Below are positions 8,718 through 26,699 of a stretch of DNA of 48,964 bases, in pieces. The stretch comes from a virus. The stretch lies in IMG/VR virus record IMGVR_UViG_3300035178_000013, positions 1-48,964 of that record; one strand, 5' to 3'. A program made the translations under genes and the position numbers. The notes beneath the pieces were generated by a model. The model was not told where the DNA came from. It saw only the letters and a program-made list of their open reading frames with translations, and ran no database searches. The first letter of the stretch is position 1, and each line of letters begins with the position of its first letter.

Positions 8718-8880
8718 GAACACCCATCTCGCCCTGAGTCACATCGTCCAGAACGTGCTCGCCTCGCACGGCTTCGTGCTGGCCGACTGGCAGGTGACCC
8801 GGATGCCGGACCGTGACGTCGTGGCCTTCGTGATCCCCCGCACCAGCCCGATCGTGCTCCCGTCCAAGCCATCGACGTGA
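8665..8880 (+). CDS. Small protein between terminase subunits
   Basis: A 71-residue protein starting at ATG 8665, in another frame within the end of the small terminase gene, and ending in a four-base overlap with the large subunit. It folds plausibly as helix-strand-strand (ALSHIVQNVLASHGFVLADW, DVVAFVIPR). No family recognised; overlap at both ends supports translation. Confidence 0.55.
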   Translation: MAQPAPPHLLETPGLPTENTHLALSHIVQNVLASHGFVLADWQVTRMPDRDVVAFVIPRTSPIVLPSKPST

Positions 8881-10256
8881 CCGCGGCTCCCACGCTTCCG
8901 TGGATGCGGGTTCCGTACCTCAGCCCGCACTTCCCCCATCCTCGACAGGCGGTGTTCCTGAGCCTCGACGAGGTGATCGAGGCGCTGTACGGCGGAGCTG
9001 CCGGCGGGGGGAAGTCGGACGCCATCCTGATGGGCTCGCTGCAGGACGTCGACAAGCCGCGCTACTCGGCGCTCATCCTGCGCCGCACGTTCGCCGACCT
9101 GTCCCTGCCGGACGCGATCATGGCCCGCGCCAAGGAATGGCTCTACGGCAAGCCGGGCGTGAAGTGGAACGAGGGCATGAAGAGCTTCTCGTTCTTCGAG
9201 GTCGCCGGCAAGAAGATCGATCCGCCCAGCCGGCTGACGTTCGGCTTCCTCGAGGGCGAGAACGACAAGTACCGCTATCAGGGCAGCGCCTACCAGTACA
9301 TCGGCTTCGACGAGCTCACCCAGTTCCGCGAGTCGGACTACCGCTACCTGTTCAGCCGGCTTCGACGGACCGAGGAGCAGGGGGCCGACGTGCCGCTCCG
9401 GATGCGGGGCGCGACCAACCCCGGTGGCGTGGGCCACGAGTGGGTCAAGGCTCGGTTCATCTCGAAGCAGCGCCCGGACCGCTTGTTCGTGGCCGCCCGG
9501 CTGGCCGACAACCCGAGCCTCGACCAAGAGGCGTACGAGGGGGCGCTCGCCCAGCTCGATGACATCAGCCGAGCCCAGCTCCTGTACGGCGACTGGGACG
9601 TCCGCCCTGATGGCAAGGTCTTCCGGCAGGGCACGTTCCACTACCTCGAGCCCGAGGAGTTCGACCCCGCCGGCTACATCTGGGTCCGGCGCTGGGATCT
9701 CGCAGCCACGAAGCCGGTCAAGGGCAAGGACCCCGACTACACGGTCGGGGTGCTCATGGGCCGGCACCGGGAGACGGGCCGATGCGTCGTCGCGGACGTG
9801 GTCCGTCTCCGCAACACTCCTGACGAGGTCGAGCGTGTGGTGAAGGCCACCGCCGAGCGTGACGGTCGCGAGCTCCGGGTCCGGATGGAGCAGGAGCCGG
9901 GGGCCAGCGGCGTCCACCTCATCGACCACTACGGCCGGAAGGTGCTGTGGGGCTACAACTTCAGCGGCGACAAGGTCACCGGCGACAAGGTGGCCCGGGC
10001 GATGCCCTACGCCACGATGGCGAACCGCGGTCAGGTCGACCTCATCCGGGCCGACTGGAACAGCGCCTACGTCGGTGAGTGCGAGGCGTTCCCCGACGGG
10101 GCCCACGACGATCAGGTCGACGCCAGCTCGGGGGCGCATCACGATCTGGTCAGCAACTACGAGCCCGGCGCTGGTACGATCGAGCCGCCCGACGGACGGC
10201 GCATCGATGACGCGTACCGGTCCCGGCGGCACAGCTACGGATCGGTGACTCGATGA
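8877..10256 (+). CDS. terL: Terminase large subunit (packaging motor and nuclease)
   Basis: A 459-residue TerL with GTG start at 8877. The ATPase half has Walker A GGAAGGGKS (residues 39-47) and Walker B YIGFDE (Asp145, Glu146). The nuclease half has the RNase H-like acidic residues Asp274 in RWDLAAT and Asp411/Asp412/Asp415 in HDDQVDA, plus an EQEPGASG segment. It pumps DNA into proheads and cuts the concatemer. All expected motifs are present and the length is normal. Confidence 0.95.
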   Translation: MTAAPTLPWMRVPYLSPHFPHPRQAVFLSLDEVIEALYGGAAGGGKSDAILMGSLQDVDKPRYSALILRRTFADLSLPDAIMARAKEWLYGKPGVKWNEGMKSFSFFEVAGKKIDPPSRLTFGFLEGENDKYRYQGSAYQYIGFDELTQFRESDYRYLFSRLRRTEEQGADVPLRMRGATNPGGVGHEWVKARFISKQRPDRLFVAARLADNPSLDQEAYEGALAQLDDISRAQLLYGDWDVRPDGKVFRQGTFHYLEPEEFDPAGYIWVRRWDLAATKPVKGKDPDYTVGVLMGRHRETGRCVVADVVRLRNTPDEVERVVKATAERDGRELRVRMEQEPGASGVHLIDHYGRKVLWGYNFSGDKVTGDKVARAMPYATMANRGQVDLIRADWNSAYVGECEAFPDGAHDDQVDASSGAHHDLVSNYEPGAGTIEPPDGRRIDDAYRSRRHSYGSVTR

Positions 10257-13668: not shown

Positions 13669-14080
13669 GCCCCCACGCACCCGCAAGCGAGGTCTCGGAC
13701 GGCCTCGGATGGTGCCGAACTGCATCGTCTGCGGCATCCACTACCTGAACGAGTCGGGGGTCCCGGTCTACGCGTTCAGCCTCATCGGATCGCTCGTCAG
13801 CCCAGCGGGGAAGCGAACGAGTAAGAGCGTTGGTGCGGTCAGCATCTGCCGGCCCTGTCTCAAAGACATCGGTCGCGGGGTGGTCGTGCCCGAGGACGAC
13901 GGGACCGGCGACATGGAGATCGCGACCGTCCAGTTCACGCATGGATCCGCGGGCTACCAGCGCGGCTGTCGATGCCCGAGCTGCCGGGCCGCCAACACCT
14001 ACTCGGTCCGGAGGCACCGGGCCCGCGTTCGCGAGCGGGAGCTCGTCTCAGCAGGAGCACTGAATGGCGACATGGACTGA
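13649..14080 (+). CDS. Zinc-binding protein divergent from the reverse operon
   Basis: A 143-residue forward protein. Its ATG at 13649 lies within the operator, 15 bases from the divergent ATG; an in-frame ATG at 13709 is an alternative start. It has two zinc-type clusters: CIVCGIHYL with CRPCL, and RGCRCPSCRAANTYS followed by a basic tail. The second cluster is widespread in actinophage proteins and may bind nucleic acid. It precedes the portal gene with a 17-base overlap. Confidence 0.65.
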   Translation: MALVEVKPPRTRKRGLGRPRMVPNCIVCGIHYLNESGVPVYAFSLIGSLVSPAGKRTSKSVGAVSICRPCLKDIGRGVVVPEDDGTGDMEIATVQFTHGSAGYQRGCRCPSCRAANTYSVRRHRARVRERELVSAGALNGDMD

Positions 14081-15533
14081 GCGGGCGGCCTCGTTTCTCT
14101 TCGGCCGAACCCTCAAGGAAGCCAGCTATGACGGCGGCGAGATTGACCCGGACGACTACCTGTACCGGCGCGTCACCGACGACAAGCGGGATCTGAACCC
14201 GATCACCCATCAGCGGGCGATCGAGATCAGCCGCGCCCTGTGGCAGCGGAACCCGATGGCGAAGCGGCTCATCGAGATCGTCCTCGACATGGTGCTCGGC
14301 GATGGCCTGACCCTGAACGCCGAGGACGAGGACGTGCAGGAGATCATCACCGAGTTCTGGGAGGACCCGGTGATGCGCCTCGACCTCCGCTTCCGAGACC
14401 TGATGCGCGACCTGTCGATCGAGGGCGAGCTCGTCCTCCGTGCCTACGAGGGCAACGCCGGCGGCCGGGTCCGGCTGGGCTACATCGATCCCGACCGGAT
14501 CAAGCAGGTGCTCAAGGACCCCGACAACATGTTCGTGGACGACAAGATCGTCCTGAACCCGAAGGAGATCGGTGGCCCGGACGAGGAGCTCCAGTGCGTC
14601 CGGCTCGAGGTGATCGGCGGGAGCCACGAGTACACCGGCGACACCTTCTTCTACGCCATCAACCGATCCGTCGCGGGCCACCGGGGCAACCCGGACCTGC
14701 TGGCCCTCGCCGACTGGATCGATGCACACGACCAGATCCTCTTCAACGCGCTGGACCGCACCGGTCTGCAGAACGCGTTCGTCTGGGACGTCCTGCTCAT
14801 GGGAGCCGACGAGACCCAGATCGGGGAGTGGATCACGAAACACGGCTCGGCTCCGCGGCCCGGCTCGGTGCGGGTCCACAACGACTCTGAGAAGTGGGAG
14901 GCCATCGCCCCTCAGCTCGGTGCCGCGGAACTCGAGACCGTGGCTCGGATGGTGAAGAACCTCGTCCTCGGTGGGCATGGCCTGCCCGAGGCATGGTTCG
15001 CCGAGGGGGACAGCGCCAACCGCGCCACGCTGGCCGAGCAGGGGACGCCGACGTTCCGGATGATCGTCGCCCGCCAGAAGGCGGTGAAGTACATCGTCGA
15101 GGACATCCTGCAGTACGTCATCGAGAAGGCGGTCGAGGCGAGCCGCCTGTCGAAGACCGTCAACCGGACCGTCTCGGTCGACCTGACCGAGCCCAGCTCC
15201 GACGACGTCACCGAGATGGTCACCGCTCTGCCTCAGCTCGTGAACGCGATGATGGGGGCCATCGGCGAGGAGCTCATCAGCCGCGAGTCGGCCCGCACCG
15301 TCTTCCTCCAGCTCGTCAACGGGCTGGGCATCGAGTTCGACCCGGAGTCCGAGGTCGACAAGATCGAGGACGAGAAGGAGGCCGAAGAGGCCAAGGCCGA
15401 AGAGGAGCGGAAGGCGGCCATGGCCCTCGGCCTGCGCCCCTCCCTGCCCGGTGCCGCGGCGATCCAGCCCAATCAGCCGGTTGCGCCGGCGGCCAACGGT
15501 AAGGAGCCCGCGCCCGTCGCTGCGGCGAAGTAG
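14064..15533 (+). CDS. Portal protein
   Basis: A 489-residue portal. It forms the dodecameric DNA gate at one capsid vertex. Recognisable parts are an N-terminal clip/stem region, ITHQRAIEISRALWQRNPMA (binding helix), GYIDPDRIKQVL, a long helix with KAVKYIVEDILQYVIEKAVE, and a charged C-terminal tail with EEAKAEEERKAAMA. Start ATG 14064 follows AGGAG. Size and order (terminase, portal, MuF, capsid) are typical of siphoviruses. Confidence 0.88.
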   Translation: MATWTERAASFLFGRTLKEASYDGGEIDPDDYLYRRVTDDKRDLNPITHQRAIEISRALWQRNPMAKRLIEIVLDMVLGDGLTLNAEDEDVQEIITEFWEDPVMRLDLRFRDLMRDLSIEGELVLRAYEGNAGGRVRLGYIDPDRIKQVLKDPDNMFVDDKIVLNPKEIGGPDEELQCVRLEVIGGSHEYTGDTFFYAINRSVAGHRGNPDLLALADWIDAHDQILFNALDRTGLQNAFVWDVLLMGADETQIGEWITKHGSAPRPGSVRVHNDSEKWEAIAPQLGAAELETVARMVKNLVLGGHGLPEAWFAEGDSANRATLAEQGTPTFRMIVARQKAVKYIVEDILQYVIEKAVEASRLSKTVNRTVSVDLTEPSSDDVTEMVTALPQLVNAMMGAIGEELISRESARTVFLQLVNGLGIEFDPESEVDKIEDEKEAEEAKAEEERKAAMALGLRPSLPGAAAIQPNQPVAPAANGKEPAPVAAAK

Positions 15534-17443
15534 TGGCGACCCAGCTCATCGAGGCCGAGGGCGACTCGACCGATCCGGTCGTTCGGGCGGTGCAGGTCGC
15601 GCTCCAGATGGACCGCAAGCTGCTGGGGATGCAGCGCACCGTGGCCGCCGACATCCAAGCCGACCTCGCACAGGCCCGGCTCGAGATCATCGGTAAGCTG
15701 GCGGTGGTCACCAAGGACTGGCAGCGGTGGCAGCTCGACGCGGTCCTCGACGAGACGACCCGTCAGCTCGAGACGTGGGAGTCTCGGACCCGGACCAACG
15801 TCCAGACCGGTCTGACCAATGCCGCGGTGGAAGGCGAGACCCTCGCCCTCGACACGCTCAATGCTGGCGGCCAGCCCCAGCCCTACCTCCGGCCGACCAC
15901 CGGCTTCGCTCATCTCACCGCCCAGTACGCCTACAGTGCGGACCTCATCAAGGGCGTCTCCCAGTCGACGATCGCGAAGGTCAACACCGAGCTCCGTCGA
16001 GCAGCGATGGCGCTGGATCCCCCGTTCGAGGTGATGCAGCGGCTCGGACCGGTGACCGGCAAGGGGGCGTTCGCCTCGGCGTTCCATCGAGCCGAGGCCA
16101 TCACCCGGACCGAGATGGGGCGTTCGTACAGCGCCAGCAACCACGCCACCCAGCTCGAGCTTGGCAAGCTGAACCCCGGCCTGCGGAAGAAGTGGCTGGC
16201 GGTGGTCGATGCGCGGACCCGCGGCTCGCATATCGCGGCCAACGATCAGGAGCGGGCCCAGACTGAGCCGTACCTCGTCGCTGGCGAGCGGCTGATGTAT
16301 CCCAAGGACCCGTCGGGCTCGGCCGAGAACACGATCATGTGCCGCTGCGTCTCGATGCCGTGGCACCCGAGCTGGAACGAGCCGCTGCCGGCGGACCAGC
16401 CCCCGCCCCCGACCACCGACCCGGCGGTCACCAAGATGCAGGCCAAGGGGGCCGAGTTCCAGCATCTCACGCGGGAGATCAGTGACTGGCTCCGGCGCTA
16501 CAACCTTCGCAACGAGGAGCTCCGCAACTCGGGGCAGTCGGCCACGGCCACCAACGTGGAGCGAGATCGCTGGGGCCGTGAGGCCGACGCGTTCCTGAAG
16601 CGGTTGGGGGCGGTCCGGAACGACCTCTACGCCCTGATGGCCCGGACACCGGAGATGCTGGCCCGGCTCACGTCGGACGATGTCGCCCTGCTGGCTCGGT
16701 TGCGGACGATGGTCAACTCCCAGACGGCGATGACGACGACGGCTCCGATCTTCGACTTTCTGACTGCGGGCAAGCCGCTCGAGCGGTCGATCTCGGCGAT
16801 CCGGACCCAGATCGGTGGGTTGCTGGGCTCGTATGTCCAGTGGTATCAAGTCGGGACCGTCCCGCTGGCCGACCGGGTCATGGATCGACCGCCTCGGAAG
16901 AGCATCAAGCAGGACTACTACGATCGGGCGCTCGCCATCGGGTCGTGGATGGAGACGCAGGGCTACCGGACGACGTGGACCGGCGAGATCGTGGTCGGCG
17001 GGGCGGGGAGTGGGGCGGCGGCGGCGTACTGGCCGAACAGCTCGATCCATCTCAGTCGCAACGTCAACCAGTACAGCGACGCCTCGAAGGACTCGGTCCT
17101 GATGCACGAGCTGCTGCATGGAACGAGCAAGTTCACTGGCGGCCAGCAGGCGATGATCGGGATGGCGGGCTGGGAAGAGGGCGTGGTCGAGATGAACCGG
17201 CAGCTCCTTCAGCCGCTGTACAACGCGGCGACGGGGAAGCCGGCCACCGGCTACGACACCTACCAGCAGTACACCCGGGCGCTCGAGGTGCTGCGAGCGG
17301 GGATCGACATGGCCCCTGAAGAGTTCTACCCTGCACTGATCCGGATCAAGGTCGACGATCGACCCGCGTGGGTCGCCAGTCAGCTCACCCTCAGCGGCGG
17401 GGAGATCAGCACCGCGTTTGCCACGCTGATGGAGGAGCGATGA
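15533..17443 (+). CDS. MuF head protein fused to HELLH zinc metallopeptidase
   Basis: A 636-residue protein, GTG start at 15533 sharing one base with the portal stop. Residues 1-280 are a MuF-type minor head protein: long helices, then RAEAITRTEMGRSYSASNHA (from Arg186), KWLAVVDARTRGSH and MCRCVSMPW (around Cys270). After a helical linker, residues about 455-636 carry MHELLHGTS with His525-Glu526-His529 and WEEG at 547-550, a likely third zinc ligand, as in gluzincin-type metallopeptidases. MuF proteins enter the capsid and some carry toxin domains; this one is probably delivered with DNA. Substrate unknown. Confidence 0.82.
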   Translation: MATQLIEAEGDSTDPVVRAVQVALQMDRKLLGMQRTVAADIQADLAQARLEIIGKLAVVTKDWQRWQLDAVLDETTRQLETWESRTRTNVQTGLTNAAVEGETLALDTLNAGGQPQPYLRPTTGFAHLTAQYAYSADLIKGVSQSTIAKVNTELRRAAMALDPPFEVMQRLGPVTGKGAFASAFHRAEAITRTEMGRSYSASNHATQLELGKLNPGLRKKWLAVVDARTRGSHIAANDQERAQTEPYLVAGERLMYPKDPSGSAENTIMCRCVSMPWHPSWNEPLPADQPPPPTTDPAVTKMQAKGAEFQHLTREISDWLRRYNLRNEELRNSGQSATATNVERDRWGREADAFLKRLGAVRNDLYALMARTPEMLARLTSDDVALLARLRTMVNSQTAMTTTAPIFDFLTAGKPLERSISAIRTQIGGLLGSYVQWYQVGTVPLADRVMDRPPRKSIKQDYYDRALAIGSWMETQGYRTTWTGEIVVGGAGSGAAAAYWPNSSIHLSRNVNQYSDASKDSVLMHELLHGTSKFTGGQQAMIGMAGWEEGVVEMNRQLLQPLYNAATGKPATGYDTYQQYTRALEVLRAGIDMAPEEFYPALIRIKVDDRPAWVASQLTLSGGEISTAFATLMEER

Positions 17444-17748
17444 ACCTGACTCCCGCCGAGGTCATCGACCTCGCCTACAAGGCGCACAGTCGCAGCGAGC
17501 TCATCATGGCGAACGAGCTCCTGCTCCAGCGACTGGCGACCGTGCCGGCGTCTCAGCACCCTGAGAAGATGGCCGAGGAGCTCGGCTGTCTCGAGCTGGT
17601 GACGCACCGGATGCTGGAGCTCCCGCCCGAGGACGCGGTCGAAGGGTTCGATCCGACCGCAGAGCTGGTGGTGGAGCCCGAAGAGGAGGAACCCCTCGAG
17701 CTGCCCGACTCGACCGAGGCCGGGCTGCGCGACCGACTAGGAGGCTGA
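17440..17748 (+). CDS. Acidic protein in the effector cassette
   Basis: A 102-residue protein starting at ATG 17440 in an ATGA overlap. The first 60 residues are helical (VIDLAYKAHSRSELIMANEL); the rest is strongly acidic (VVEPEEEEPLELPDSTEAG). It lies between the MuF-peptidase and the first ADP-ribosyltransferase. A chaperone, adaptor or inhibitor for a neighbouring effector is possible but unsupported by homology. Confidence 0.6.
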   Translation: MNLTPAEVIDLAYKAHSRSELIMANELLLQRLATVPASQHPEKMAEELGCLELVTHRMLELPPEDAVEGFDPTAELVVEPEEEEPLELPDSTEAGLRDRLGG

Positions 17749-17749
17749 C

Positions 17750-18763
17750 GTGCTGGTCCGACTCGAAGAGCACCAGTCCCTCGTCCTCGTCGAAGCTGCC
17801 CAGCCGCGGGTGCCACCGGGAAGCTCGAAGGGCGGACAGTTCGCCAGCACTGGCGGCGGTGGTCACGCCAGCATCACGGGATCGTCCAAGCCGGAACGGG
17901 CGGCCCTCAACAAGTCCACGCGGGGCGAGATCGTGGCCCGCACCAGCGCCCAGCTCGGGATGTCTGAGCGGCCATGGCAGGATGGTGGAGCCGTTGGTGT
18001 CGCCGCCAAGCACACCGGGACTCACGAGGTCGGGAAGCGGCTCGACGCCAACCCTGCCTACCAGAAGGGCCTCCAGACCGAGGGCGGGATGTTCGTGCAG
18101 GGCGAGATGGAGGGGAACGCCCACGGGATCAACGGCTATTCGGGCGGCACCGCGGCGCATCCCCACAGTCAGGGGATGCAGTTCACCGACGGGGCACAGG
18201 ACATGTGGGCCCAGACCGCCTCGGGGTCGCAGACGGCGGCGGACTTCCAGTACGCGGCCAAGGCTGAGTTCGGAGTCGGGTCGACCAAGCACCTGCCGCT
18301 GCAGGCGCGGGGCTCGGCGCTCGAGGTGAGCCGGAACAGGCTGTCCGCCACCGAACTTGCTGATCGACAGGGCGTCATCCGCGCCTATCACCGCTCCCGG
18401 TACGACGACACGCAGGCCCACCTCGCCAGTCTCGGGATGCAGCCGACCGACCGGGTCACGCTCTTCCGGGGTACGGGCTCGATGCACGACGCGTCCGACC
18501 CGTTCTCGGCGGATGCTCCCCGTGAGCTCGAGCGGTCGGGCGCGGGTCGGAGCCGGACCACCACCGTGGAGCTGGCTCCGCTGTCGAGCTGGTCGAACAA
18601 CTTCGTGACCGCCTCCTCGTTCGGGGGGTCGGTCATGGCGGCCAGCTTCCCGGTGAGCCGGATCTATGGCATCAGCACCCGCGGTTCCGGGGCGCACAAC
18701 GAGGGCGAGGTCATCGTGCTCGGCTCGCCGGCGCACGGCTTCGATACGGTGGCCTTCACATGA
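17750..18763 (+). CDS. Tagged ADP-ribosyltransferase 1
   Basis: A 337-residue protein, GTG start at 17750. Residues 16-33 carry the tag AAQPRVPPGSSKGGQFAS, then a Gly-rich linker. The C-terminal domain has the R-S-E ADP-ribosyltransferase signature: Arg240 in VTLFRGTG, LSSWS (278-282) as the STS strand, and Glu318-Gly-Glu320 as the ExE loop. Such enzymes transfer ADP-ribose from NAD+ to host proteins, often on arginine for ExE types. It is paralogous to the next gene and lies among head genes, so injection is inferred, as for T4 Alt. Confidence 0.82.
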   Translation: MLVRLEEHQSLVLVEAAQPRVPPGSSKGGQFASTGGGGHASITGSSKPERAALNKSTRGEIVARTSAQLGMSERPWQDGGAVGVAAKHTGTHEVGKRLDANPAYQKGLQTEGGMFVQGEMEGNAHGINGYSGGTAAHPHSQGMQFTDGAQDMWAQTASGSQTAADFQYAAKAEFGVGSTKHLPLQARGSALEVSRNRLSATELADRQGVIRAYHRSRYDDTQAHLASLGMQPTDRVTLFRGTGSMHDASDPFSADAPRELERSGAGRSRTTTVELAPLSSWSNNFVTASSFGGSVMAASFPVSRIYGISTRGSGAHNEGEVIVLGSPAHGFDTVAFT

Positions 18764-19734
18764 CCCTTGCGATCGATGAGCTGGAGGCCGACTGGATCAA
18801 GCAGGCGCACGTCGATCCGCTCCACGAGGCTGCCCAGCCCCGCGTCCCGGCTGGCTCGACCAAGGGCGGCCAGTTCGCTTCGGCGGGCGGCGGGGCGGGC
18901 ACGTCAACGGCGGGTGCGACTGAGGCCGGCACCGCCAACCGGCAGAGGCTGGACAAGGCCATGTCGCAGACTCGCGGTGGAGTCGGTCCCAGTGAGGTCA
19001 AGGCGCGAGGGGCGACCGAGGTCGGTGCGATGCTCGACAAGCGCGGGTTCGAGCACACCGAGTCGATGGATGGCTACGTCGCGGACAAGGGCCACGACTT
19101 CGGCGATGCGCCGAAGGTGTACACCGACAACCCCGGCTACTGGACGTCGGGGAAGCAGTACGCCAACGCGATGCAGTCGACGTGGGCCCAGTCGGCGGCC
19201 GACAGTCATCCGGTGGCGATCCAGATGCAACATGCCGCCAGCAAAGAGTTCGGCCTGCAGGCTCGGACCGACCACCTGAAGCCTCTCGACTCGAAGGTAG
19301 GTTGGGTGCAGGGCAGGGACCCGGCCACCGACCCGCCGCCGATGTCCACCCTGCGAACGTATGCTCGAGCCCGGTATGACCATACGCAGGCGTCGCTCGC
19401 CGCGATGGGGGTGACCGGCGAAGTCACCCTCTACCGAGGGACGTACACCGGCCGACGTGACCCGGGGACCGGCGGCCCCGAGGTGTCGCCCGCGGCCAGC
19501 ACCTTCCCGACGCGGCAGACCACCAACGCCCATCTGGCCCCGCTCTCGTCGTGGTCGACGTCCATCGATGTCGCGGAGAGCTTCGGCGACTCGGTGATGA
19601 CCGCGACCTTCCCGGTCAAGCGGATCTTCGGCACGGCTCTGACCGGGTCGGGCGCTCTGACTGAGCACGAGGTCATCGTTATCGGTGGTAGCCCCGATCC
19701 GGTCAGCGTCACGACGACCCCGAGGTCGTACTGA
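18760..19734 (+). CDS. Tagged ADP-ribosyltransferase 2
   Basis: A 324-residue protein starting at ATG 18760, overlapping the first transferase. It has an N-terminal DELEADWIKQ segment, the tag QPRVPAGSTKGGQFAS (26-41), and a catalytic domain with Arg226 (VTLYRGTYTG), SSWS (263-266) and Glu302-His-Glu304 (EHEVIVIGG). All three ART signature regions are intact. Similarity to gene 1 across LAPLSSWS and the surrounding region shows duplication followed by divergence. The target is unknown. Confidence 0.82.
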   Translation: MTLAIDELEADWIKQAHVDPLHEAAQPRVPAGSTKGGQFASAGGGAGTSTAGATEAGTANRQRLDKAMSQTRGGVGPSEVKARGATEVGAMLDKRGFEHTESMDGYVADKGHDFGDAPKVYTDNPGYWTSGKQYANAMQSTWAQSAADSHPVAIQMQHAASKEFGLQARTDHLKPLDSKVGWVQGRDPATDPPPMSTLRTYARARYDHTQASLAAMGVTGEVTLYRGTYTGRRDPGTGGPEVSPAASTFPTRQTTNAHLAPLSSWSTSIDVAESFGDSVMTATFPVKRIFGTALTGSGALTEHEVIVIGGSPDPVSVTTTPRSY

Positions 19735-20405
19735 TGACCTTCTACCCCGACGACCTCGAAGAGGATTGGATCAAGCAGGTCCCGCCGTGGGCCATCCGCG
19801 AGGCGTACAACCCGGGCCAGCCGCGCAACCCTCGAGGCTCCCCGCATGGCGGTGAGTTCGCCAGCTCCCGAGGTGGTGCCGGCTCGACGGGTGGCGCGAC
19901 CGGCCAACGCGGCAGGATGGCACCGGCCGAGGGCGAGGCGAAGATCCAAGCCATGGAGGCCCTGATCGCGCACAACAACTACGAGACCGGGGTCGTGTTC
20001 CGCAACGGTGAGCTGGTCGGTGAGGCACGGGGCGACTCCCACTCGGTCGAGGTCGGTTCGCAGCCGGGTGACGTCGTGCTCCACAACCACCCGTCGGATT
20101 CGACGCTGTCTCTGCAGGACGGCGACTCGGCGTTCGGCGGTGAGCTCGGCGAGGTGCGGTCGGTCGGTCCGTCGACGTACTCCCGGCTGGCCCCGGCTCC
20201 GGGCCAGAAGACCTTCAACGCCGCCGATCAGGACCGATACCGGCAGGCCGTCGAGACGACGATCGTCGAGCTTGGGATCGGGCAGAGGGTCCCCGGCGGG
20301 GTCCGGTTTACGACGACCGACCTGCCCTCCCTGAGCCAGCAGACTGCGATGTGGAACCGGATCGCGACTAAGATGCGTGTCCGGTTTGAGGCAGGCTCTC
20401 GATGA
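19734..20405 (+). CDS. Tagged JAB/JAMM-type peptidase
   Basis: A 223-residue protein starting at ATG 19734. The N-terminus (DDLEEDWIKQ, then YNPGQPRNPRGSPHGGEFAS at 25-44) matches the ART2 leader. The C-terminal domain has TGVVFRNGELVGEARGDSH, then LHNHPSD with His117/His119 and Ser126-xx-Asp129: the HxHP...SxxD zinc motif of JAB/MPN+ isopeptidases. Such domains cleave ubiquitin-like or other isopeptide bonds; in phages some process tail or cell-wall substrates. An injected protease effector is the context-based reading. Confidence 0.72.
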   Translation: MTFYPDDLEEDWIKQVPPWAIREAYNPGQPRNPRGSPHGGEFASSRGGAGSTGGATGQRGRMAPAEGEAKIQAMEALIAHNNYETGVVFRNGELVGEARGDSHSVEVGSQPGDVVLHNHPSDSTLSLQDGDSAFGGELGEVRSVGPSTYSRLAPAPGQKTFNAADQDRYRQAVETTIVELGIGQRVPGGVRFTTTDLPSLSQQTAMWNRIATKMRVRFEAGSR

Positions 20406-21385
20406 CCTCGATCATCCTCGACGGCACGGACATCTGGCGTGAGGTTCGCTGGGGTACGCCGCTTCGCGAGCACCTGTCCGGCAAGCATGACCAGCGGGCC
20501 CACGGCCGAAAGGGCAGCCTGTCGGCTCCCGATCACATGGACGGCCTGCATCCGAACGCGGTCGCCGCGATCCATGCCCGGGCGGCCTCGATGGGGATCG
20601 ACTCGGCCGCGATGACCCAGCGGATGACCGATCTCTACCTGAAGGCCACGCCGGCGCAGCTCGAAGCGGGGATGGGCTGGTATCAGAAGGTCGGCGACCA
20701 CGGTGAGGCCATCGGTAGGCCCTACGGCATCAGCCGTGAACGCACGTCGGCGGTGTACGCCGCCCTCAGCCCGGCTCGAAGCTGGGAGAACAACATGCGG
20801 GTCGGCGACTCGATCCTCCACGTCGTGGGCAAGGACGAACCGTTCCACGCAGACCCGACGTTGGCTGCCTCGGCCCGCCCGCCGTTCGGTGGTGGTCGGG
20901 TCCGGCCATCCCAGCTCACACCGGCCCAGCTCGCATGGACGCATCCCGAGTTCCGTGGTGCAGCGGCCTCGTCAATCAATCACTACCGGCAGGTCTCGAC
21001 GGGGATCGAACTGGCTCGGGGCGACATCACGCCAGACATGGCCCTCACCGGCCCGAAGACCCGGTCGTTCCACAACAACATCTTCGACCCCCGAGACGCG
21101 TCCAGCGTCACGATCGACGACTGGATGTACCGAACGGCCCTCGGGCCGGACACGACGCTGACGATCAGCGGAGCCCAGCATCGGACTGGCGACTTCGACT
21201 ACGGCCAGATGGGCGCGGTCATGACCCGCTCGCCGGCCGTCGCGTCGGCTGGCTACCCGTCGGGTTCGGGGCTGTACCCGCTCTTCGGTGATGCGATCAC
21301 CGTCGGCGCTCACAGCGTCGGGGTCCTGCCGCACCAGTTCCAAGCGGTCGTCTGGGTGGTTGCCCGGGACGGCGGGATACAGTAG
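20402..21385 (+). CDS. DUF7178-like protein with KHDQRxHG tag
   Basis: A 327-residue protein starting at ATG 20402. Residues 23-35 (EHLSGKHDQRAHG) are a second class of phage head-associated tag. The main domain has GWYQKVGDHGEAIGRPYGIS, YAALSPARSWENN, GPKTRSFHNNIFDP and SVTIDDWMYRTALG, the order of a phage family I recall as DUF7178 (usually VTIDRHA). The biochemical role of that family is unknown to me. The stop codon lies inside an operator palindrome (21380-21398). Confidence 0.6.
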   Translation: MTSIILDGTDIWREVRWGTPLREHLSGKHDQRAHGRKGSLSAPDHMDGLHPNAVAAIHARAASMGIDSAAMTQRMTDLYLKATPAQLEAGMGWYQKVGDHGEAIGRPYGISRERTSAVYAALSPARSWENNMRVGDSILHVVGKDEPFHADPTLAASARPPFGGGRVRPSQLTPAQLAWTHPEFRGAAASSINHYRQVSTGIELARGDITPDMALTGPKTRSFHNNIFDPRDASSVTIDDWMYRTALGPDTTLTISGAQHRTGDFDYGQMGAVMTRSPAVASAGYPSGSGLYPLFGDAITVGAHSVGVLPHQFQAVVWVVARDGGIQ

Positions 21386-21398
21386 CATGATGCTATGG
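21360..21398 (+). promoter_or_regulatory. Operator and putative promoter within the effector cassette
   Basis: CAGTAGC-ATGAT-GCTATGG (21380-21398) is an exact match to the NNNTAGC-N5-GCTANNN operator. TTGCCC (21360-21365), a 17-base spacer and TAGCAT (21383-21388) could form a promoter, with the ATG at 21395 six bases after the -10 as at the leaderless sites. An alternative -10, TATGGT, would place the start of transcription inside the gene. The promoter is weaker than the reverse ones. Confidence 0.5.
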
Positions 21399-22846
21399 TG
21401 CTGAACCCCTACTCGTACAACGACAGCGAGCTGGAGGCGCTGCCTCCGCCTGACCTGACGGTGGTCGCGACCGACCCACCGGCTCCGCTCCCTGAGCATC
21501 TCCTCGAGGCGGACCCGGTGGTCCCTGAGATCTCGATCCGTGATGACCTGATTGCCGGCGACGTGGTCATCGAGTACCCCGACGTCGGACCAGATGCGGG
21601 CGAGACCCCCGAGCTGGAAGAGGCGTACAACCCTCACCAGCCTCGGAACCCGGCGGGCTCGTCCAAGGGTGGACAGTTCGCCAGCGGTGGTGGGGCTGGA
21701 GCGGCTCAGGGCGACGTCCGCTCCGGCTCCCCGTCGTGGGGCTGGTCGCAAGAGGCGATCGGTCAGCACCCACCGGCGGTGCAGGCCCAGATCCGGAAGG
21801 TCGAGCAGGAGCTGCACGACATCCACACCGAGGCCGAGCGGTTGGTTGGCATCCACCCGACGACCGGCGAGATCCTGTTCGATTCCGGCGTCGTGCAGGG
21901 GGCCGGGATGGACGTCACGCCCGCGATGGACGCCAAGCTGGCCGGCTCGATCATGATCCACAACCACCCGTTGGGCTATCTCGAGCACACCTTCGGTGAC
22001 CCGAAGACCGACCCGCTGACCAATGGCAACTCGTTCAGCTCCGAGGACGTCCTGACCGGTGCTCGGCTGGGCGCGGCCGAGATGCGAGCGGTCGGCCCGC
22101 GGGCAACGTACGTCCTGCGCGGCAAGGCGGATCCGGCGTGGGGCTTCGAGTACAAGGACCGAGCGTCGGCGAACATCGCCCAGCTCGACGTCGCCAACGC
22201 CCTGAGCAACGCCCACACGTCGACCTACCTCCGTGGCTATCAGGCCATTGAGAGCGGCTCGTTGACTCGCCAGCAGGCGTCGGCTCGGCACTGGGATACG
22301 CTGTGGTCCGAGCTCGCTCCCCAGCGGGGCTGGGAGTATCAGGCGTTCAAGGCTCCCGACTTCATCGAGGCATACAACGCCAATCAGCCGAGGGACCGGA
22401 CTGGCAAGTGGGCTTCGGGCGGTTCTGCGGGAACGCAGGTCGCCGTCCGGAGTCTGGAGCGGTCCGGTGGCTACTCGGTCCGGACCTACGGCACGGCCAC
22501 CAAGCGCCCGCCGTCGACCGGGGTGATGATGGGCTACGGTGCCGACCGCGGTCATAACCAGCGGCTGACCCACGCCGAGCACATGTCCCACGCCGATCGG
22601 GTCTCCGCCATCCGCGAGCACTACAAGGCCAACCGGACGTTCATTCAGGCGCACCCCGACCGATTCGCCGGTGGTTGGATGCAGACCCATCCCGATGGCA
22701 GCGCCACGCTCCACCTCGACGTCAGCCGCTACTTCCCGCCCTCCCAGCGGGCATCGGCCATCCGGTTCGGGAAGTCCGAGAACCAGATTGCCGGCTATGA
22801 TCTCGGCTCTGGCGAAGACATCGCAGTAGGTGGAACCGGATCATGA
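21395..22846 (+). CDS. Double-tagged protein: JAB/JAMM domain plus second domain
   Basis: A 483-residue protein from ATG 21395. The tag YNPHQPRNPAGSSKGGQFAS starts at Tyr78 and is followed by a JAB-like domain: ERLVGIHPTTGEILFDSG, IMIHNHP with His189/His191, and Ser215-S-E-Asp218. A second tag, YNANQPRDRTGKWASG, starts at Tyr327 and precedes a smaller domain with GGWMQTHPDGSATLHLDVSR and NQIAGYDLGSGEDI, a beta-rich type common in phage head-associated proteins. The internal second tag implies fusion of two once separate cargo genes. Confidence 0.7.
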   Translation: MVLNPYSYNDSELEALPPPDLTVVATDPPAPLPEHLLEADPVVPEISIRDDLIAGDVVIEYPDVGPDAGETPELEEAYNPHQPRNPAGSSKGGQFASGGGAGAAQGDVRSGSPSWGWSQEAIGQHPPAVQAQIRKVEQELHDIHTEAERLVGIHPTTGEILFDSGVVQGAGMDVTPAMDAKLAGSIMIHNHPLGYLEHTFGDPKTDPLTNGNSFSSEDVLTGARLGAAEMRAVGPRATYVLRGKADPAWGFEYKDRASANIAQLDVANALSNAHTSTYLRGYQAIESGSLTRQQASARHWDTLWSELAPQRGWEYQAFKAPDFIEAYNANQPRDRTGKWASGGSAGTQVAVRSLERSGGYSVRTYGTATKRPPSTGVMMGYGADRGHNQRLTHAEHMSHADRVSAIREHYKANRTFIQAHPDRFAGGWMQTHPDGSATLHLDVSRYFPPSQRASAIRFGKSENQIAGYDLGSGEDIAVGGTGS

Positions 22847-23565
22847 CCTTCCTGCTCGGTCGGGATCTCACCGACGAGGAGCTCGACGAGGCCGCCGAAG
22901 AGGCGGCCCTCTTCATGGACGAGCTGGTCCCGCCGCGCCCTGAGCTCGAGGAGAAGTACAACCCCTCACAGGCTCGGGACAAGGGCGGGAAGTGGACGTC
23001 CGGTGGTGGTGGCGGTGGCGCGATCGCCTCGGCCGCCCGCTCCGCCGAGCCGGCCATCTCCGACTCGATGCAGACCGCGGCTCACGCGGCGGGGGGTGAG
23101 CTCGTCGGCTTCGAGCACCGGCTGAAGAGCGGCGAGTCGCTCGACCGCAAGATCGGCAAGTACGAGTCCGAGGGTCACATGACCCACGAGCAGGCCGTGG
23201 GCAGCATCAACGACGCGGTCCGCTACACGGTCCAGACGTCACCCGAGGGCTACAGCGCGGGGTATGTGCAGGCCCAGCAGTCCCTGTCGGCGGCCGGCCA
23301 CACCCGGCTGCGGACCCGGCAATACTGGGCCAACCCGGACCAGACCGGCTACGTTGGGATCAACGAGGTCTGGCAGACGAGCTCGGGCCAGCGGTTCGAG
23401 GTCCAGTTCCATACGGCCCAGACATGGGCCCTCAAGCAGCAGTCCCACGTCTTCTACGAGCATTACCGCACGGCTCGGACGCCATCCGCTCGGAGGATCG
23501 CGGACCAGCAGATGCATGCGCTCTGGTCGCACGTCGAGGTCCCGCCCGGGGCGTTGACGCTATGA
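22843..23565 (+). CDS. Tagged RelA/SpoT-like nucleotidyltransferase
   Basis: A 240-residue protein starting at ATG 22843. An acidic N-terminus precedes the tag YNPSQARDKGGKWTSG (39-54). The C-terminal domain has RLKSGESLDRK (Lys95-Lys103), Asp124-Ala-Val-Arg127-Tyr, YVGIN (170-174) and Glu186-V-Q-F-H-T. This matches the RelA/SpoT synthetase order (basic loop, D-x2-R, tyrosine loop, ExQ-x-H/R-T). Relatives make (p)ppGpp or (p)ppApp, or modify tRNA with pyrophosphate, and act as toxins. There is no hydrolase domain. Product unknown. Confidence 0.7.
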   Translation: MTFLLGRDLTDEELDEAAEEAALFMDELVPPRPELEEKYNPSQARDKGGKWTSGGGGGGAIASAARSAEPAISDSMQTAAHAAGGELVGFEHRLKSGESLDRKIGKYESEGHMTHEQAVGSINDAVRYTVQTSPEGYSAGYVQAQQSLSAAGHTRLRTRQYWANPDQTGYVGINEVWQTSSGQRFEVQFHTAQTWALKQQSHVFYEHYRTARTPSARRIADQQMHALWSHVEVPPGALTL

Positions 23566-23589: not shown

Positions 23590-23772
23590 GTGAAGACGTA
23601 CAAGTGGGAGCCGCTCTCAGGGACGCCGGTCGAGTTCCGGATCTCGGAGGATGCCGGCACTGTGGAAGTCAAGCGCCCCGACGAGACCGGCGGGGACGAG
23701 TGGGTCGCTCCCGAGGACCAGACGTTCTGGTACGAGCTCACGACTGATCCGTTCGTCACGGAGATCACCTAG
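23590..23772 (+). CDS. Moron-like 60-residue protein
   Basis: A 60-residue protein with GTG start at 23590 (MKTYKWEPLSGTPVEFRISE...), rich in acidic and aromatic residues and probably all-beta. It has its own promoter and operator and is followed by a strongly structured element, the make-up of a moron expressed independently of the late operon. An antitoxin or superinfection protein is conceivable; nothing in the sequence decides. Confidence 0.65.
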   Translation: MKTYKWEPLSGTPVEFRISEDAGTVEVKRPDETGGDEWVAPEDQTFWYELTTDPFVTEIT

Positions 23773-23854
23773 GGCCCGGCGGACAAGGCTTGGACGTCTC
23801 CTATCCGTCCTAGCCCGGTGAGAGTCCGGGGTTGGCAGCGCGTGGCCGGGCCCT
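23771..23854. ncRNA. Structured intergenic element, candidate RNA or terminator
   Basis: AGGGCCCGGC (23771-23780) and GCCGGGCCCT (23845-23854) are perfect ten-base complements enclosing 64 bases. Inside, GGCT-T-GGACG (23787-23796) pairs with CGTCC-T-AGCC (23806-23815) around a nine-base loop, and a shorter CCGG/CCGG hairpin follows. The fold is a branched, closed structure. It is not a tRNA (no T-arm or anticodon arm) and I match it to no known ribozyme or riboswitch. It separates two convergent genes. Confidence 0.45.
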
Positions 23855-23855
23855 T

Positions 23856-24104
23856 CTAGACCAGCTCAGGACCGAGCTGGTCTTTCACCATCCGGTTCAG
23901 AATCCGCCCGGCGTCCATGACGTTGTCGGCGATGACGGTCGGCAGATCGATGTCCTGATCGCCGAGCTCCTCGGGAGCCGGCACCAGTCGCGGGCTGATC
24001 CAGTACCGCTGGGCGCTGATGGCGTCCACGATCCAGAACCCAGTCCATCGCGGTTCGTTCTGTTCGGACCGCTCCCAGCGTCCGATGACGCGCCACGCCT
24101 GCAC
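23856..24104 (-). CDS. Solitary reverse-strand protein
   Basis: An 82-residue reverse-strand protein starting at GTG 24104 (starts MQAWRVIGRWERSEQNEPRW). Third positions are strongly GC-rich in this frame and poor on the forward strand. It is the only reverse gene inside the head operon. The last codons form a ten-base hairpin (AGACCAGCTC/GAGCTGGTCT, 23857-23882) that could end transcription. No ribosome site is clear, so it may be leaderless or weakly expressed. Function unknown. Confidence 0.6.
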   Translation of the reverse strand: MQAWRVIGRWERSEQNEPRWTGFWIVDAISAQRYWISPRLVPAPEELGDQDIDLPTVIADNVMDAGRILNRMVKDQLGPELV

Positions 24105-24119
24105 GAGGAGAGTCTACCG

Positions 24120-24470
24120 ATGTCCCCACGCAAGAAGACCGAGAAGGCCGACGCTGACCCGATGAGCCTCATCCTGCTTGAGGACGACGAGGAGGTCGTC
24201 GCCACCGCCGAGCACGACGACGCGTTCTGGGTGGTCACCAGCGCAGGTCGGAAGTGGCGGGTCGCCGACGGCGTAGCCGAGATCACCACCGGCCCGTCGC
24301 TGCCCGTCGACGACGAGGACGCCGAGGATGACGCTGCGGCCGAGGACGACGGAGCCCCTGAGCCGGCCGCTCCGGACGCTGATGACTCCACCGAGGGCGC
24401 AGACGCCCCGATGGACACCAGCGGGGACGACGCGGCAGCTCCTGACGCGGAGCCGGCCTCCGACGAGTAG
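24120..24470 (+). CDS. Acidic head-region protein
   Basis: A 116-residue protein starting at ATG 24120 after GAGGAGAG. The N-terminal half has a small beta-rich unit (EEVVATAEHDDAFWVVTSAG, RKWRVADGVAEI); the C-terminal 55 residues are almost entirely Asp, Glu, Ala and Pro. It immediately precedes the capsid gene. A role in prohead assembly is possible from position. Confidence 0.6.
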   Translation: MSPRKKTEKADADPMSLILLEDDEEVVATAEHDDAFWVVTSAGRKWRVADGVAEITTGPSLPVDDEDAEDDAAAEDDGAPEPAAPDADDSTEGADAPMDTSGDDAAAPDAEPASDE

Positions 24471-24473
24471 TCC

Positions 24474-26699
24474 ATGCGACTCGAGGAGCGCGACTTCAAC
24501 ACCGCCCGGCGCGAGGAACTGGCCGACTCGGGCAAAGCGATGGCCGACGGGAGCTTCCCGATCGTCAACCGAGAAGACCTCGGCAACGCGATCAAGCTGG
24601 TCGGTCGGTCCAAGAACCCCGCCGCGGCGAAGCGGCACATCATCAAGCGGGCTCGTGCCCTAGGAGCGACCGACATGCTTCCAGACGACTGGGGAGTGAG
24701 CGAGGCCCTCGATGGGGCTGTACTGCTCTCCGAGTCCATGACCGGTTCGGTCGTCGACGTCCTGCTCATCAAGGCAGGGGTCAGCGCGAACCGTCGCCAG
24801 TACCGACCCGAGGTGCTGCGCGAGGCCCTGCCCCTCTTCGAGGGAGCTCGGGCGTTCGCGGCCAACGGGCCGGATCACAACAGCGCCGAGCGTGGCGTGA
24901 AGTCTCTGGTCGGTTGGTACACCGATCCCCGCTATGTCACCGACGTCTCTCTCCCGGGAGGGAAGAAGACGGTCGAGGGCATCGCGGCCAACTTCCACAT
25001 CTCCGAGGCCGCGCCGTGGCTCCGGAGCCTGATCGCCGATGCCATCAGGCGCGGCAAGCCCGACCTCGTCGGGTTCTCTATCGTCGGTGACGGCCAAGTG
25101 CAAGTGATGCGCGAAGCTCGATCCAACCGTCCGATCCACGACGTGTCCCGAATCGATTCGATCGACTCGGTCGACGTGGTGGTCAGTCCCGCTGCCGGTG
25201 GCGTTCCGCTCCGGCTGGTGGCAAGCAAGGAGGTCCCATCTGTGGGCACCCCATCCGTGGCTGAGGCCGTCAAGGGCCTCGCGTCCGGCACGATTCTGCC
25301 GGACGAACTGAAGGAAGAGCAGCCCGAGCTCCACGAGTCTCTCGTGGACGGGACCGCCCTGACTTCAGAAGATGAGCCGCCCGAGAAGCCCGAGGAGCCC
25401 GCGGAGCCGGGGCCCGAGGATCTCGACGCTCGAGTCGCCGAGGCAATCGGCGTCCGCATGACGCCGGTTCTCGTCGAGGCCAAGCTGGCCGGAACGAAGC
25501 TGCCCGAGAAGTCGAAGGACCGCGTCCGCTCGACGGCTCAGGGCAAGGCCCTGTCCGAGTCGGAGATCGAGAAGCTGGTCAAGGATGAGGCCGACTACGT
25601 CGCCTCGTTCAACCCGGCGCTCGTGACTGACGCCGGTCCCGCTACGTCCGACATGAAGGGCGAGCAGGACCAGATCACCGAGGCGATCGACAAGATCCTG
25701 CAGGGCGAGTCCAACGACTCGTTCCGTGAGATCTACGTCAGTCTGACCGGCGATGCCGGGATGACTGGTCGCTACCAGCCGGGAGGCCGACTCACCGAGT
25801 CTGTCATCTCGTCGACGTTCGACCAGATCATGGCCGACTCGATCACCCGGCAGATGGTTCGCCAGTACACGATGGCGGCGCTCGACCAGCAGTGGCGGCC
25901 GCTCGTCGACATCGTGCCCAAGCGCGACTTCCGGACTGAGCGCCGGACCCGCATGGGTGGGTACGGCAACCTGCCGACCGTGGCGGAAGGTGGCCCTTAC
26001 ACGGCCCTGACCACCCCGGGCGACGAAGAGGCGACCTACGCGATCTCGAAGAAGGGCGGCACCGAGGATCTGACCCTCGAGGCCGTCGCGAACGACGATC
26101 TGGGCGCACTCCGGGCGATCCCGACCAAGCTCGGTCGGGCTGCAGCGCGGACCCTGCACAAGTTCGTCTTCGACTTCCTCGCGACCAACGGGAACATCTA
26201 CGACGCGGTGGCCCTGTTCCACGCGTCGCACGGTGGCAACCTTGGGTCGACCGCGCTGGGAGCCGCATCCCTGTCGGCAGCTCGTCTGGTCATGAAGAAC
26301 CAGACCGAGGCAGGCTCGGCCGAGAAGATCGGGCTCGTGCCCCGCTACCTGATCGTCCCGAACGATCTGGAGCAGACGGCATACGAGCTGACCCAGACCG
26401 ACCGTGAGGTGGGTTCGGCGAACAACACGCTGAACTTCGCTCGCACCTTCGGCCTGTCGGTCATCCCGGTGGCCTACTTCACCGACAACAACAACTGGTT
26501 CCTCGTCGCTGACAAGGGCGACGTGCCGACCATCGAGATCGCGTTCTTCAACGGGCGGGAGGAGCCGGAGCTCTTCCTGCAGGACAGCCCCACCGTGGGG
26601 TCGGTCTTCAGCAACGACAAGCTGACGTGGAAGATCCGCCACATCTATGGCGGAGCGGTCATCGACTACCGCGGGTTCTTCGGCGCAGTCGTCGCCTAG
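24474..26699 (+). CDS. Prohead protease-scaffold-major capsid fusion
   Basis: A 741-residue polyprotein from ATG 24474. Residues 1-70 are a small domain (GKAMADGSFPIVNREDLGNA, KRHIIKRARALG). Residues about 75-253 are a prohead protease with His135 (GPDHNSAERG) and Ser202 (GFSIVG) as likely catalytic residues. Residues about 254-410 are an acidic helical, scaffold-like linker. From about 415 an HK97-type capsid follows (YTMAALDQQWRPLVDIVPKR, LHKFVFDFLATNG, LVPRYLIVPNDLEQTA, YGGAVIDYRGF). Self-cleavage should release the roughly 320-residue shell protein. Confidence 0.85.
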   Translation: MRLEERDFNTARREELADSGKAMADGSFPIVNREDLGNAIKLVGRSKNPAAAKRHIIKRARALGATDMLPDDWGVSEALDGAVLLSESMTGSVVDVLLIKAGVSANRRQYRPEVLREALPLFEGARAFAANGPDHNSAERGVKSLVGWYTDPRYVTDVSLPGGKKTVEGIAANFHISEAAPWLRSLIADAIRRGKPDLVGFSIVGDGQVQVMREARSNRPIHDVSRIDSIDSVDVVVSPAAGGVPLRLVASKEVPSVGTPSVAEAVKGLASGTILPDELKEEQPELHESLVDGTALTSEDEPPEKPEEPAEPGPEDLDARVAEAIGVRMTPVLVEAKLAGTKLPEKSKDRVRSTAQGKALSESEIEKLVKDEADYVASFNPALVTDAGPATSDMKGEQDQITEAIDKILQGESNDSFREIYVSLTGDAGMTGRYQPGGRLTESVISSTFDQIMADSITRQMVRQYTMAALDQQWRPLVDIVPKRDFRTERRTRMGGYGNLPTVAEGGPYTALTTPGDEEATYAISKKGGTEDLTLEAVANDDLGALRAIPTKLGRAAARTLHKFVFDFLATNGNIYDAVALFHASHGGNLGSTALGAASLSAARLVMKNQTEAGSAEKIGLVPRYLIVPNDLEQTAYELTQTDREVGSANNTLNFARTFGLSVIPVAYFTDNNNWFLVADKGDVPTIEIAFFNGREEPELFLQDSPTVGSVFSNDKLTWKIRHIYGGAVIDYRGFFGAVVA

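Follow-up and report, generated by a model that had tools for sequence, protein, structure and literature searches.

We analysed a block of eight genes (G1–G8) that lies between the portal gene and the prohead protease/major capsid fusion gene of the IMG/VR virus record IMGVR_UViG_3300035178_000013, and we consider it reasonably likely that this block is a cassette of head cargo within the late operon, composed of an enzyme fused to the MuF head protein (G1) and of effectors that carry a leader and a short peptide tag (G3–G8). Our window is the whole record, 48,964 bases with a G+C content of 67%, and its source is an uncultured virus of bacteria. The tags suggest a common label for cargo that would be carried in the head and released into the infected cell. 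The gene order, the domains of G3, G4, G6 and G8, the conservation of the tags and their occurrence elsewhere, and the absence of the block from relatives were observed by computation. An earlier note on this DNA had named delivery as the common factor of these genes; at the sequence level the diversity of the enzymes, the shared modular tag, the head-gene setting and the swapping of domains bear out part of its claim, whereas 'capsid-borne', 'injected' and a tag that serves as delivery signal are terms for what we infer.

Gene order and tags of the block

All genes of the block are on the plus strand, with seven large genes and one small gene following the portal gene (14064..15533; PHROG portal family 10963, 2.4e-39) in the same direction, and together with the portal gene they occupy positions 14064–23565. 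The run of seven large genes had been placed correctly in the earlier note; the small gene G2, which went unmentioned there, is also present. According to the open reading frame (ORF) coordinates, neighbours overlap by 1–4 nucleotides or are separated by gaps of 1–9 nucleotides, and because of this spacing G1–G8 and the portal gene probably form a single late transcription and translation unit.

To place the block among relatives we compared loci that span the same junction. In 12/12 distant relatives (portals 28–31% identical; some are near-duplicates, and two further loci end too early) the portal and protease-capsid genes are adjacent, with a gap of 52–77 bp, as compared to 8.9 kb in the window. 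The block is therefore extra material relative to these 12 distant relatives. Two contigs that are near-identical to the window (L062 and L069) carry the block or part of it.

G3–G8 bear seven tags of three types, and G1 has none; six of the seven large genes are thus tagged, as had been claimed, although with three kinds of tag rather than one. The long tag (QPRxPxGSxxGGxFAS) is found in G3 as QPRVPPGSSKGGQFAS (17801..17848, after LVE-AA, 34.2 bits), in G4 as QPRVPAGSTKGGQFAS (18835..18882, after LHE-AA, 39.6 bits), in G5 as QPRNPRGSPHGGEFAS (19818..19865, after IRE-AYNPG, 38.2 bits) and in G7 as QPRNPAGSSKGGQFAS (21638..21685, after LEE-AYNPH, 42.3 bits). The short tag (QxRDxxGKWxSGG) is the second tag of G7, QPRDRTGKWASGG (22385..22423, after FIE-AYNAN), and the only tag of G8, QARDKGGKWTSGG (22969..23007, after LEE-KYNPS). 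G6 carries the KHDQ tag (pattern HLxGKHDQxxHG) as HLSGKHDQRAHG (20471..20506, after LRE), with similar tags in other phage proteins. All seven are encoded on the plus strand, and the N-terminal leaders in front of the first tags of G3–G8 measure 15–76 residues.

A long-tag profile that was built from 40 non-window tags, leaving the window out, matched 4/314 window ORFs at 34–42 bits, all of them in the cluster and corresponding to its four long tags, while the best score among 62,800 shuffled ORFs was 12.6 bits. Over their first 44 columns G4 and G5 align with 52% identity (E 2.7e-7), yet the enzymes that follow are different: the leader-tag part moves independently of its cargo. Among the four long tags 39/76 codon pairs encoding the same residue differ. 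We therefore rejected recent DNA duplication as the cause of the likeness, and the same count shows that the peptide was retained while its codons drifted synonymously.

The tags are directly preceded by [LIF]xE in 7/7 cases, one of which is internal to G7, and by the strict form [LI]xE in 6/7 (FIE being the seventh); the background of [LI]xE is 0.0094 per position. The protease-capsid fusion itself contains LTE|S at residues 440–443, just before the capsid domain, in addition to other [LI]xE triplets, and its relatives have TE or SE at the aligned position. The T4 protease cuts after L/I-x-E and removes targeting leaders in that way (PMC9026906), and the P1 capsid protein is cut between E120 and S121 (PMC9024508). 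Since the motif precedes the tags, the capsid fusion has a site of the same kind and T4 and P1 cut likewise, it is a concrete and probable prediction, by analogy, that cleavage in this phage takes place immediately in front of each tag. As a general feature of the tag the LxE motif was rejected, with only 5/69 long tags outside the window having [LIVMF]xE nearby.

Domains of the block proteins

G1 (15533..17443) lies directly downstream of the portal gene and contains a MuF domain at residues 184–274 (PF04233, Phage_Mu_F, 7.6e-7; PHROG head morphogenesis 3.7e-24). The earlier note had one of the seven large proteins fused to the MuF head protein, and this is what we find; family scans detected MuF in G1 only and in none of G3–G8. 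The translation of the C-terminal extension contains HELLH, with WEE farther downstream, and HELLH suggests a zincin-like metallopeptidase motif. The extension had no informative match in PDB searches and no family match, so that the metallopeptidase proposed earlier stands as a motif. G2 (17440..17748, 102 residues, start and stop from the translation) gave no significant family match in Pfam, PHROG and NCBIfam-type scans. Each of G3–G8 has one assigned domain, by family match or by motif, and G7 has a second, unassigned module.

G3 (17750..18763) and G4 (18760..19734) both match the DRAT family PF07357, at 2.5e-4 (below the curated cut-off) and 9e-7 (above it), respectively, and are 38% identical over 316 columns. 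Both retain the arginine of a YRG/FRG motif, the sequence SSWS and an ExE motif; we take these to be the R-S-E signature of ADP-ribosyltransferases (ARTs). The case for G3 and G4 being paralogous DRAT-like ARTs is strong, in agreement with the two ARTs claimed for the block. A PDB search with G4 gave no informative match, and tblastn of G4 and G7 against cultured phages returned weak partial matches only: a single record of Bacillus phage SP-15, present in two copies (28% identity), and one unannotated faecal record.

G5 (19734..20405; HNHPSDSTLSLQD) and G7 (21395..22846; HNHP...SSED) share HNHP, each followed by an SxxD, which is a JAB/RadC-type pattern, and their JAB regions are 28% identical. 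Of the claim that these are two JAB peptidases, it is this motif that holds: neither protein had a significant match in Pfam, PHROG and NCBIfam scans, PDB searches with G7 and with the JAB profile gave no JAB match, and a JAB-profile scan of viral contigs confirmed 1/144 stretches, this one being the window's own near-identical contig. A tagged protein on another contig (L052) that we considered as a G7 homologue was rejected, as the JAB motif is absent from it. The C-terminal module of G7 (22424–22846, about 140 residues), which is located behind the second tag, had no family match.

G6 (20402..21385) matches DUF7178 (PF23802, 3e-25), as the earlier note had proposed. Structure prediction of the C-terminal domains gave mixed results: the JAB-region model from two sequences was unusable, with a predicted local distance difference test (pLDDT) score of 42, whereas the DUF7178 model, made from an alignment of 33 sequences drawn from the best 80 of 112 relatives, was usable (pLDDT 77.2). 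All 50 rows listed by VIA-align for this model are DNA glycosylases, including endonuclease III, the best being MjOgg (Z 10.9, root-mean-square deviation 3.4 Å, 177 aligned residues); VIA re-ranks Foldseek's own candidates, and helical models may reach such Z values without kinship, as the tool warns. Foldseek alone gave no match to the model at E ≤ 0.001, and PDB searches with G6 and with the DUF7178 profile were uninformative. K167 and D187 are invariant in 33/33 DUF7178 sequences, at a spacing that we take to be close to that of the catalytic Lys/Asp pair of HhH-GPD enzymes, about 20 residues apart, and two cultured-phage relatives have been annotated as glycosylase by their depositors. Judging by the model, DUF7178 has a probable HhH-GPD DNA glycosylase fold, which sharpens the earlier assignment. 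DUF7178 is also embedded in many phage proteins of 1,000–3,300 residues (L140, L143, L147 and others).

The domain of G8 (22843..23565) matches the PDB entry 8vx3, 'SaSAS' (4.1e-23), and the C-terminal end matches the head morphogenesis/minor head families phrog_7625 (4e-19) and phrog_2841 (2.3e-6). The domain (residues 72–237) occurs in 42 phage records; those with a stated function are annotated as head, minor head, head morphogenesis or capsid-and-scaffold protein, and the phages that have it in head proteins include Streptococcus, Pasteurella and Mannheimia phages. Matches of G8 to XopAD-like proteins in NCBIfam were set aside, since they show only a common C-terminal domain. There is thus a strong case that G8 is an alarmone synthetase of the SAS/Apk2 type, as known from phage head proteins; the RelA/SpoT-like synthetase of the earlier note is retained as synthetase homology and narrowed to this type.

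The annotations of the G8 relatives raise the question of whether the block encodes ordinary head assembly or maturation factors, with JAB and zincin domains processing the head and the other proteins acting as structural accessories. The location of the genes within the head operon and the occurrence of tags on prohead proteases (see below) would fit such a role. However, 12/12 relatives lack any gene at the junction, the phage already possesses a protease-capsid fusion, and to our knowledge no assembly role exists for ART, alarmone synthetase or DNA glycosylase folds. We regard this explanation as very improbable.

Tags in other phages and their possible role

The 16-residue core of the long tag recurs across different phage contigs. 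A DNA pattern for the long tag matched 40 stretches in viral contigs (two of which are L062 and L069; the total of viral bases is not given) and 8 stretches in 257 Gb of prokaryote genomes. In the search for KHDQ tags H[LMN][PSAQ]G was required before KHDQ, and terminase-type KHDQHSHG and KHDQYSHG strings were left out as apparent chance lookalikes. Of 77 distinct tagged proteins, 72 remained once 5 window proteins were excluded; this set was gathered by tag and is no unbiased survey, and some of its loci are near-duplicates.

Among the Pfam families of these 72 proteins (25 of 27 listed) ADPrib_exo_Tox has 12 members and portal families have 5 and 4; Acb1, PI3/4-kinase, Nudix, HipA-like and ART families occur three times each, zeta toxin, MuF, DUF7178, AAA_33 and AbiEii twice each, and prohead protease, DRAT, GNAT and others once. 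The PI3/4-kinase and HipA-like matches are the same three proteins of one contig. With PHROGs (25 of 82 families listed), head maturation, portal, minor head and Alt-like ART families are at the top. Different domains thus stand behind the same tags, as the earlier note had expected of related phages. As a control we used 99 of 162 eligible untagged ORFs from the same loci, at least 5 genes away from a tag (63 were dropped by hand). Their families (25 of 39 listed) are mostly of the tail, terminase, capsid and DNA-metabolism kinds; the ART exotoxin is absent from those listed and hence has at most one member, which gives 12/72 tagged versus 1/99 control proteins (Fisher p = 1.5e-4). The genes within two of a tagged gene (25 of 143 families listed) encode portals, head proteases, head morphogenesis proteins and terminases, as well as DNA methyltransferases and four ART-family members. 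Eight loci from metagenome-assembled genomes (MAGs; L075–L082) contributed to the tagged set and were excluded from the neighbour and control sets.

Several contigs combine tags with head proteins. On L055 (4807–8076, minus strand) a portal domain is followed by Acb1, a weak tag, a module, a tag and a further module; L027, L067 and L094 encode a portal, a tag and a module; L038 has MuF and then a short tag; and L074 has MuF (just under the cut-off), tags and a Tis1_ImmP-like region. On L026 (950–12047) three PI3K/HipA-like kinase proteins with tags and a protein that has four tags and no Pfam match precede a tagged prohead protease, in which the tag directly follows the protease domain; this is apparently another phage with a cargo cluster. 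In L004 a short tag lies near the N-terminus of a prohead protease protein, before the protease domain. A 1,015-residue protein (L071) has three tags, one before each of three ART regions, of which Pfam detects one and the others match G3/G4, and a protein of L064 has an ART-PolyVal domain and, behind a long tag, DUF7178.

DUF7178 is found behind all three tag forms: the KHDQ tag in the window, the long tag in L064 and the short tag in a neighbour of L094 (9.2e-5, below the cut-off). Long and short tags also co-occur: in L064, L052, L071 and L049 a single protein contains both, and in L042 they are carried by adjacent genes. By these two observations the three forms behave as equivalents. Tentatively, and with less confidence than we have in the cassette itself, we suggest that they are interchangeable forms of one general virion-cargo code, a short element by which proteins or segments of polyproteins are marked for loading into, and release from, the heads of tailed phages. 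If so, such a code would be present in many environmental phages, would serve a large and freely swapped set of enzymes and would be the virion counterpart of a secretion signal.

For the window we propose the following course of events. The enzyme of G1 would enter the head through its fusion to MuF. G3–G8 would be free-standing effectors made up of an N-terminal leader, a tag and an enzyme (two tagged modules in G7), and leader and tag most likely would bring about association with the assembling head. The capsid-fused protease would then cut after [LI]xE before each tag and remove the leader, as in T4 internal proteins; the matured enzymes would be ejected along with the DNA, and in the new host they would act by ADP-ribosylation, alarmone synthesis, base excision and JAB or zincin cleavage. 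Packaging, cleavage, ejection and targets are the parts of this scheme that we infer.

A number of observations weigh against this scheme. Tags are also found behind portal, MuF and protease domains, which need no targeting; since such a fused domain is itself a head component, the tag may serve to release cargo or to link it instead, and these readings are as open as targeting. JAB and zincin are assigned from motifs only, the proposed cleavage would at best apply to this lineage, and the tags of the window share a common descent. Tag searches found no tag in many DUF7178 proteins, and 0/7 annotated cultured-phage stretches with related portals or DUF7178 carry one. As to the survey, tagged proteins exceed control ORFs in length and are thereby more apt to give domain matches; the control also has effector-type domains (MPTase-PolyVal and ArdcN, of the injected-protein type); PHROGs served for the neighbours and Pfam for the control, so that the two are not directly comparable; and counts from a set collected by tag cannot stand for an unbiased sample.

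The position of the tags also bears on whether the tag is just a linker or a seam at which domains are shuffled, a conserved spacer at the joint between an effector domain and a head protein or leader, with delivery decided by the MuF or portal fusion or by the leader. Tags do sit between the head domain and the C-terminal module in portal, MuF and protease fusions, lie between repeated modules and run into Gly-rich stretches. Against a linker it speaks that the residues are kept while synonymous codons differ (39/76 pairs for shared residues) and that a 16-residue core recurs across phage contigs, both signs of constraint beyond the need of a plain linker, and that six free-standing window proteins are tagged without a head fusion. 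We consider the linker explanation unlikely, and retain that of tagged head cargo.

Two further groups of contigs contain tag-like peptides. MAG contigs of Actinomycetes and Acidimicrobiaceae (L075–L081) encode a related peptide (QPRRPxGTPxGGQFAP-like), mostly at the very N-terminus, and a 3.3-kb Trueperaceae MAG contig (L082; 192–2040, minus strand) has three small tagged ORFs in a row, with one long and two short tags, and is possibly a fragment of a phage cargo cluster. A tblastn search with a 26-residue tag, a very short query, gave no match among cultured phages. Cultured-phage portals from Rhizobium, Pseudomonas syringae and Pseudanabaena (Pam3) phages, among the 25 of 1333 records listed, align with L055 through its Acb1 region, and the one or two examined had no tag.

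Comparison with known systems and neighbouring genes

Head-borne effectors are already known as an idea: MuF-fused or head-packaged effectors are an established proposal (PMC3482391, PMC5576092, PMC5512222, PMC9503650), MuF toxins with Apk2 domains have been characterised in Streptococcus, Mannheimia and Pasteurella phage groups (PMC12226406), and capsid targeting sequences have been tested in T4 and P1 (PMC9026906, PMC9024508).

The arrangement of G1, a MuF protein right after the portal, is that of the MuF polymorphic toxins (PMC5576092, PMC12226406), and the domain of G8 is found in head proteins of the same phage groups as the MuF-Apk2 toxins (PMC12226406). The block could accordingly be read as the polymorphic-toxin or superinfection-exclusion set of a temperate phage, expressed in lysogens or used against competitors and accompanied by immunity genes, as has been proposed for MuF toxins. 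The Apk2 domains of MuF toxins are toxic in E. coli (PMC12226406), and the small gene G2 lies behind G1, a common position for immunity genes (PMC5576092). Unlike in the MuF toxins, however, six effectors of the window are separate and tagged without MuF. Moreover, a scan of 45 other window proteins (44/50 of the genes predicted outside the cluster, together with one additional ORF) gave no integrase or repressor family, in a record that may be incomplete and with no search aimed at Apk2-type immunity genes. We regard a toxin set of this kind as improbable, and compare the proposed head-cargo cassette with other delivered proteins below.

Polyvalent proteins of phages and conjugative elements (PMC5512222) contain domains of the same kinds (ART, RelA/SpoT, zincin and RadC/JAB), and the tagged L064 protein resembles them; the window differs from them in having mostly one domain per gene and a common tag, and the terms linker, low-complexity, glycine-rich and N-terminal signal are absent from the available text of that paper. 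The T4 internal proteins and Alt (PMC9026906, PMC12373910) likewise have a short N-terminal leader ending in L/I-x-E before the cargo, and Alt is an injected ART. In contrast to T4, and as regards position and distribution, the shared tags of the window come behind the putative cut site and are present in more than one phage group. The Dar proteins of P1 (PMC9024508) are similar in that several proteins are packaged in the head, one of them by means of an N-terminal targeting sequence whose length lies above 9 and below 30 residues, and different in that the P1 N-termini have no BLAST consensus, whereas those of the window share tags. Finally, ART, Nudix and 2H domains have been described near or fused to portal and MuF proteins (PMC9503650), and cultured-phage portals with an apparent Acb1-like region also occur (among the 25 of 1333 records listed); the available portion of that paper mentions no shared tag.

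Among the top matches in the open-access full-text literature we found no announcement of these tags, and searches with tag peptide strings gave no phage paper by title. What seems new here is that many separate effectors are united by interchangeable tags common to head proteins of other phages. If this is correct, a searchable peptide mark would identify virion-delivered effectors across phages by sequence alone, where such effectors have so far been recognised by MuF or portal fusion or by gene position, at least in the available texts. It would become possible to test which enzymes enter the cell along with phage DNA, which host defences these answer, and whether the loading of cargo in a laboratory phage is open to reprogramming; as to host defences, such tags are present on a portal protein with an Acb1 domain, which acts against the cyclic oligonucleotide-based antiphage signalling system (CBASS). 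DUF7178, which is found in large phage proteins, would gain a probable function on the strength of its model.

Outside the block, the same record encodes a terminase (8877–10256) and a tape measure protein (34207–36849). Two smaller ORFs (23590–23772 and 23832–24470) separate G8 from the protease-capsid fusion. The second half of the latter ORF is very acidic; where the ORF starts is uncertain, and there are overlapping antisense ORFs. It possibly encodes a scaffold or decoration protein. The prohead protease/major capsid fusion (24474..26699, plus strand) has its capsid domain at residues 445–735 (PF25209, 6.3e-50), matches PHROG head maturation protease families and matches NF045541 at 4.2e-61, far below the curated cut-off. 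Its first 73 residues (24480–24692, ending near LPDDW) recur in four other contigs at 54–69% identity, and L004 shares the N-terminal segment at 38% over a longer stretch (loci L003–L007), suggesting that this segment is a mobile head segment.

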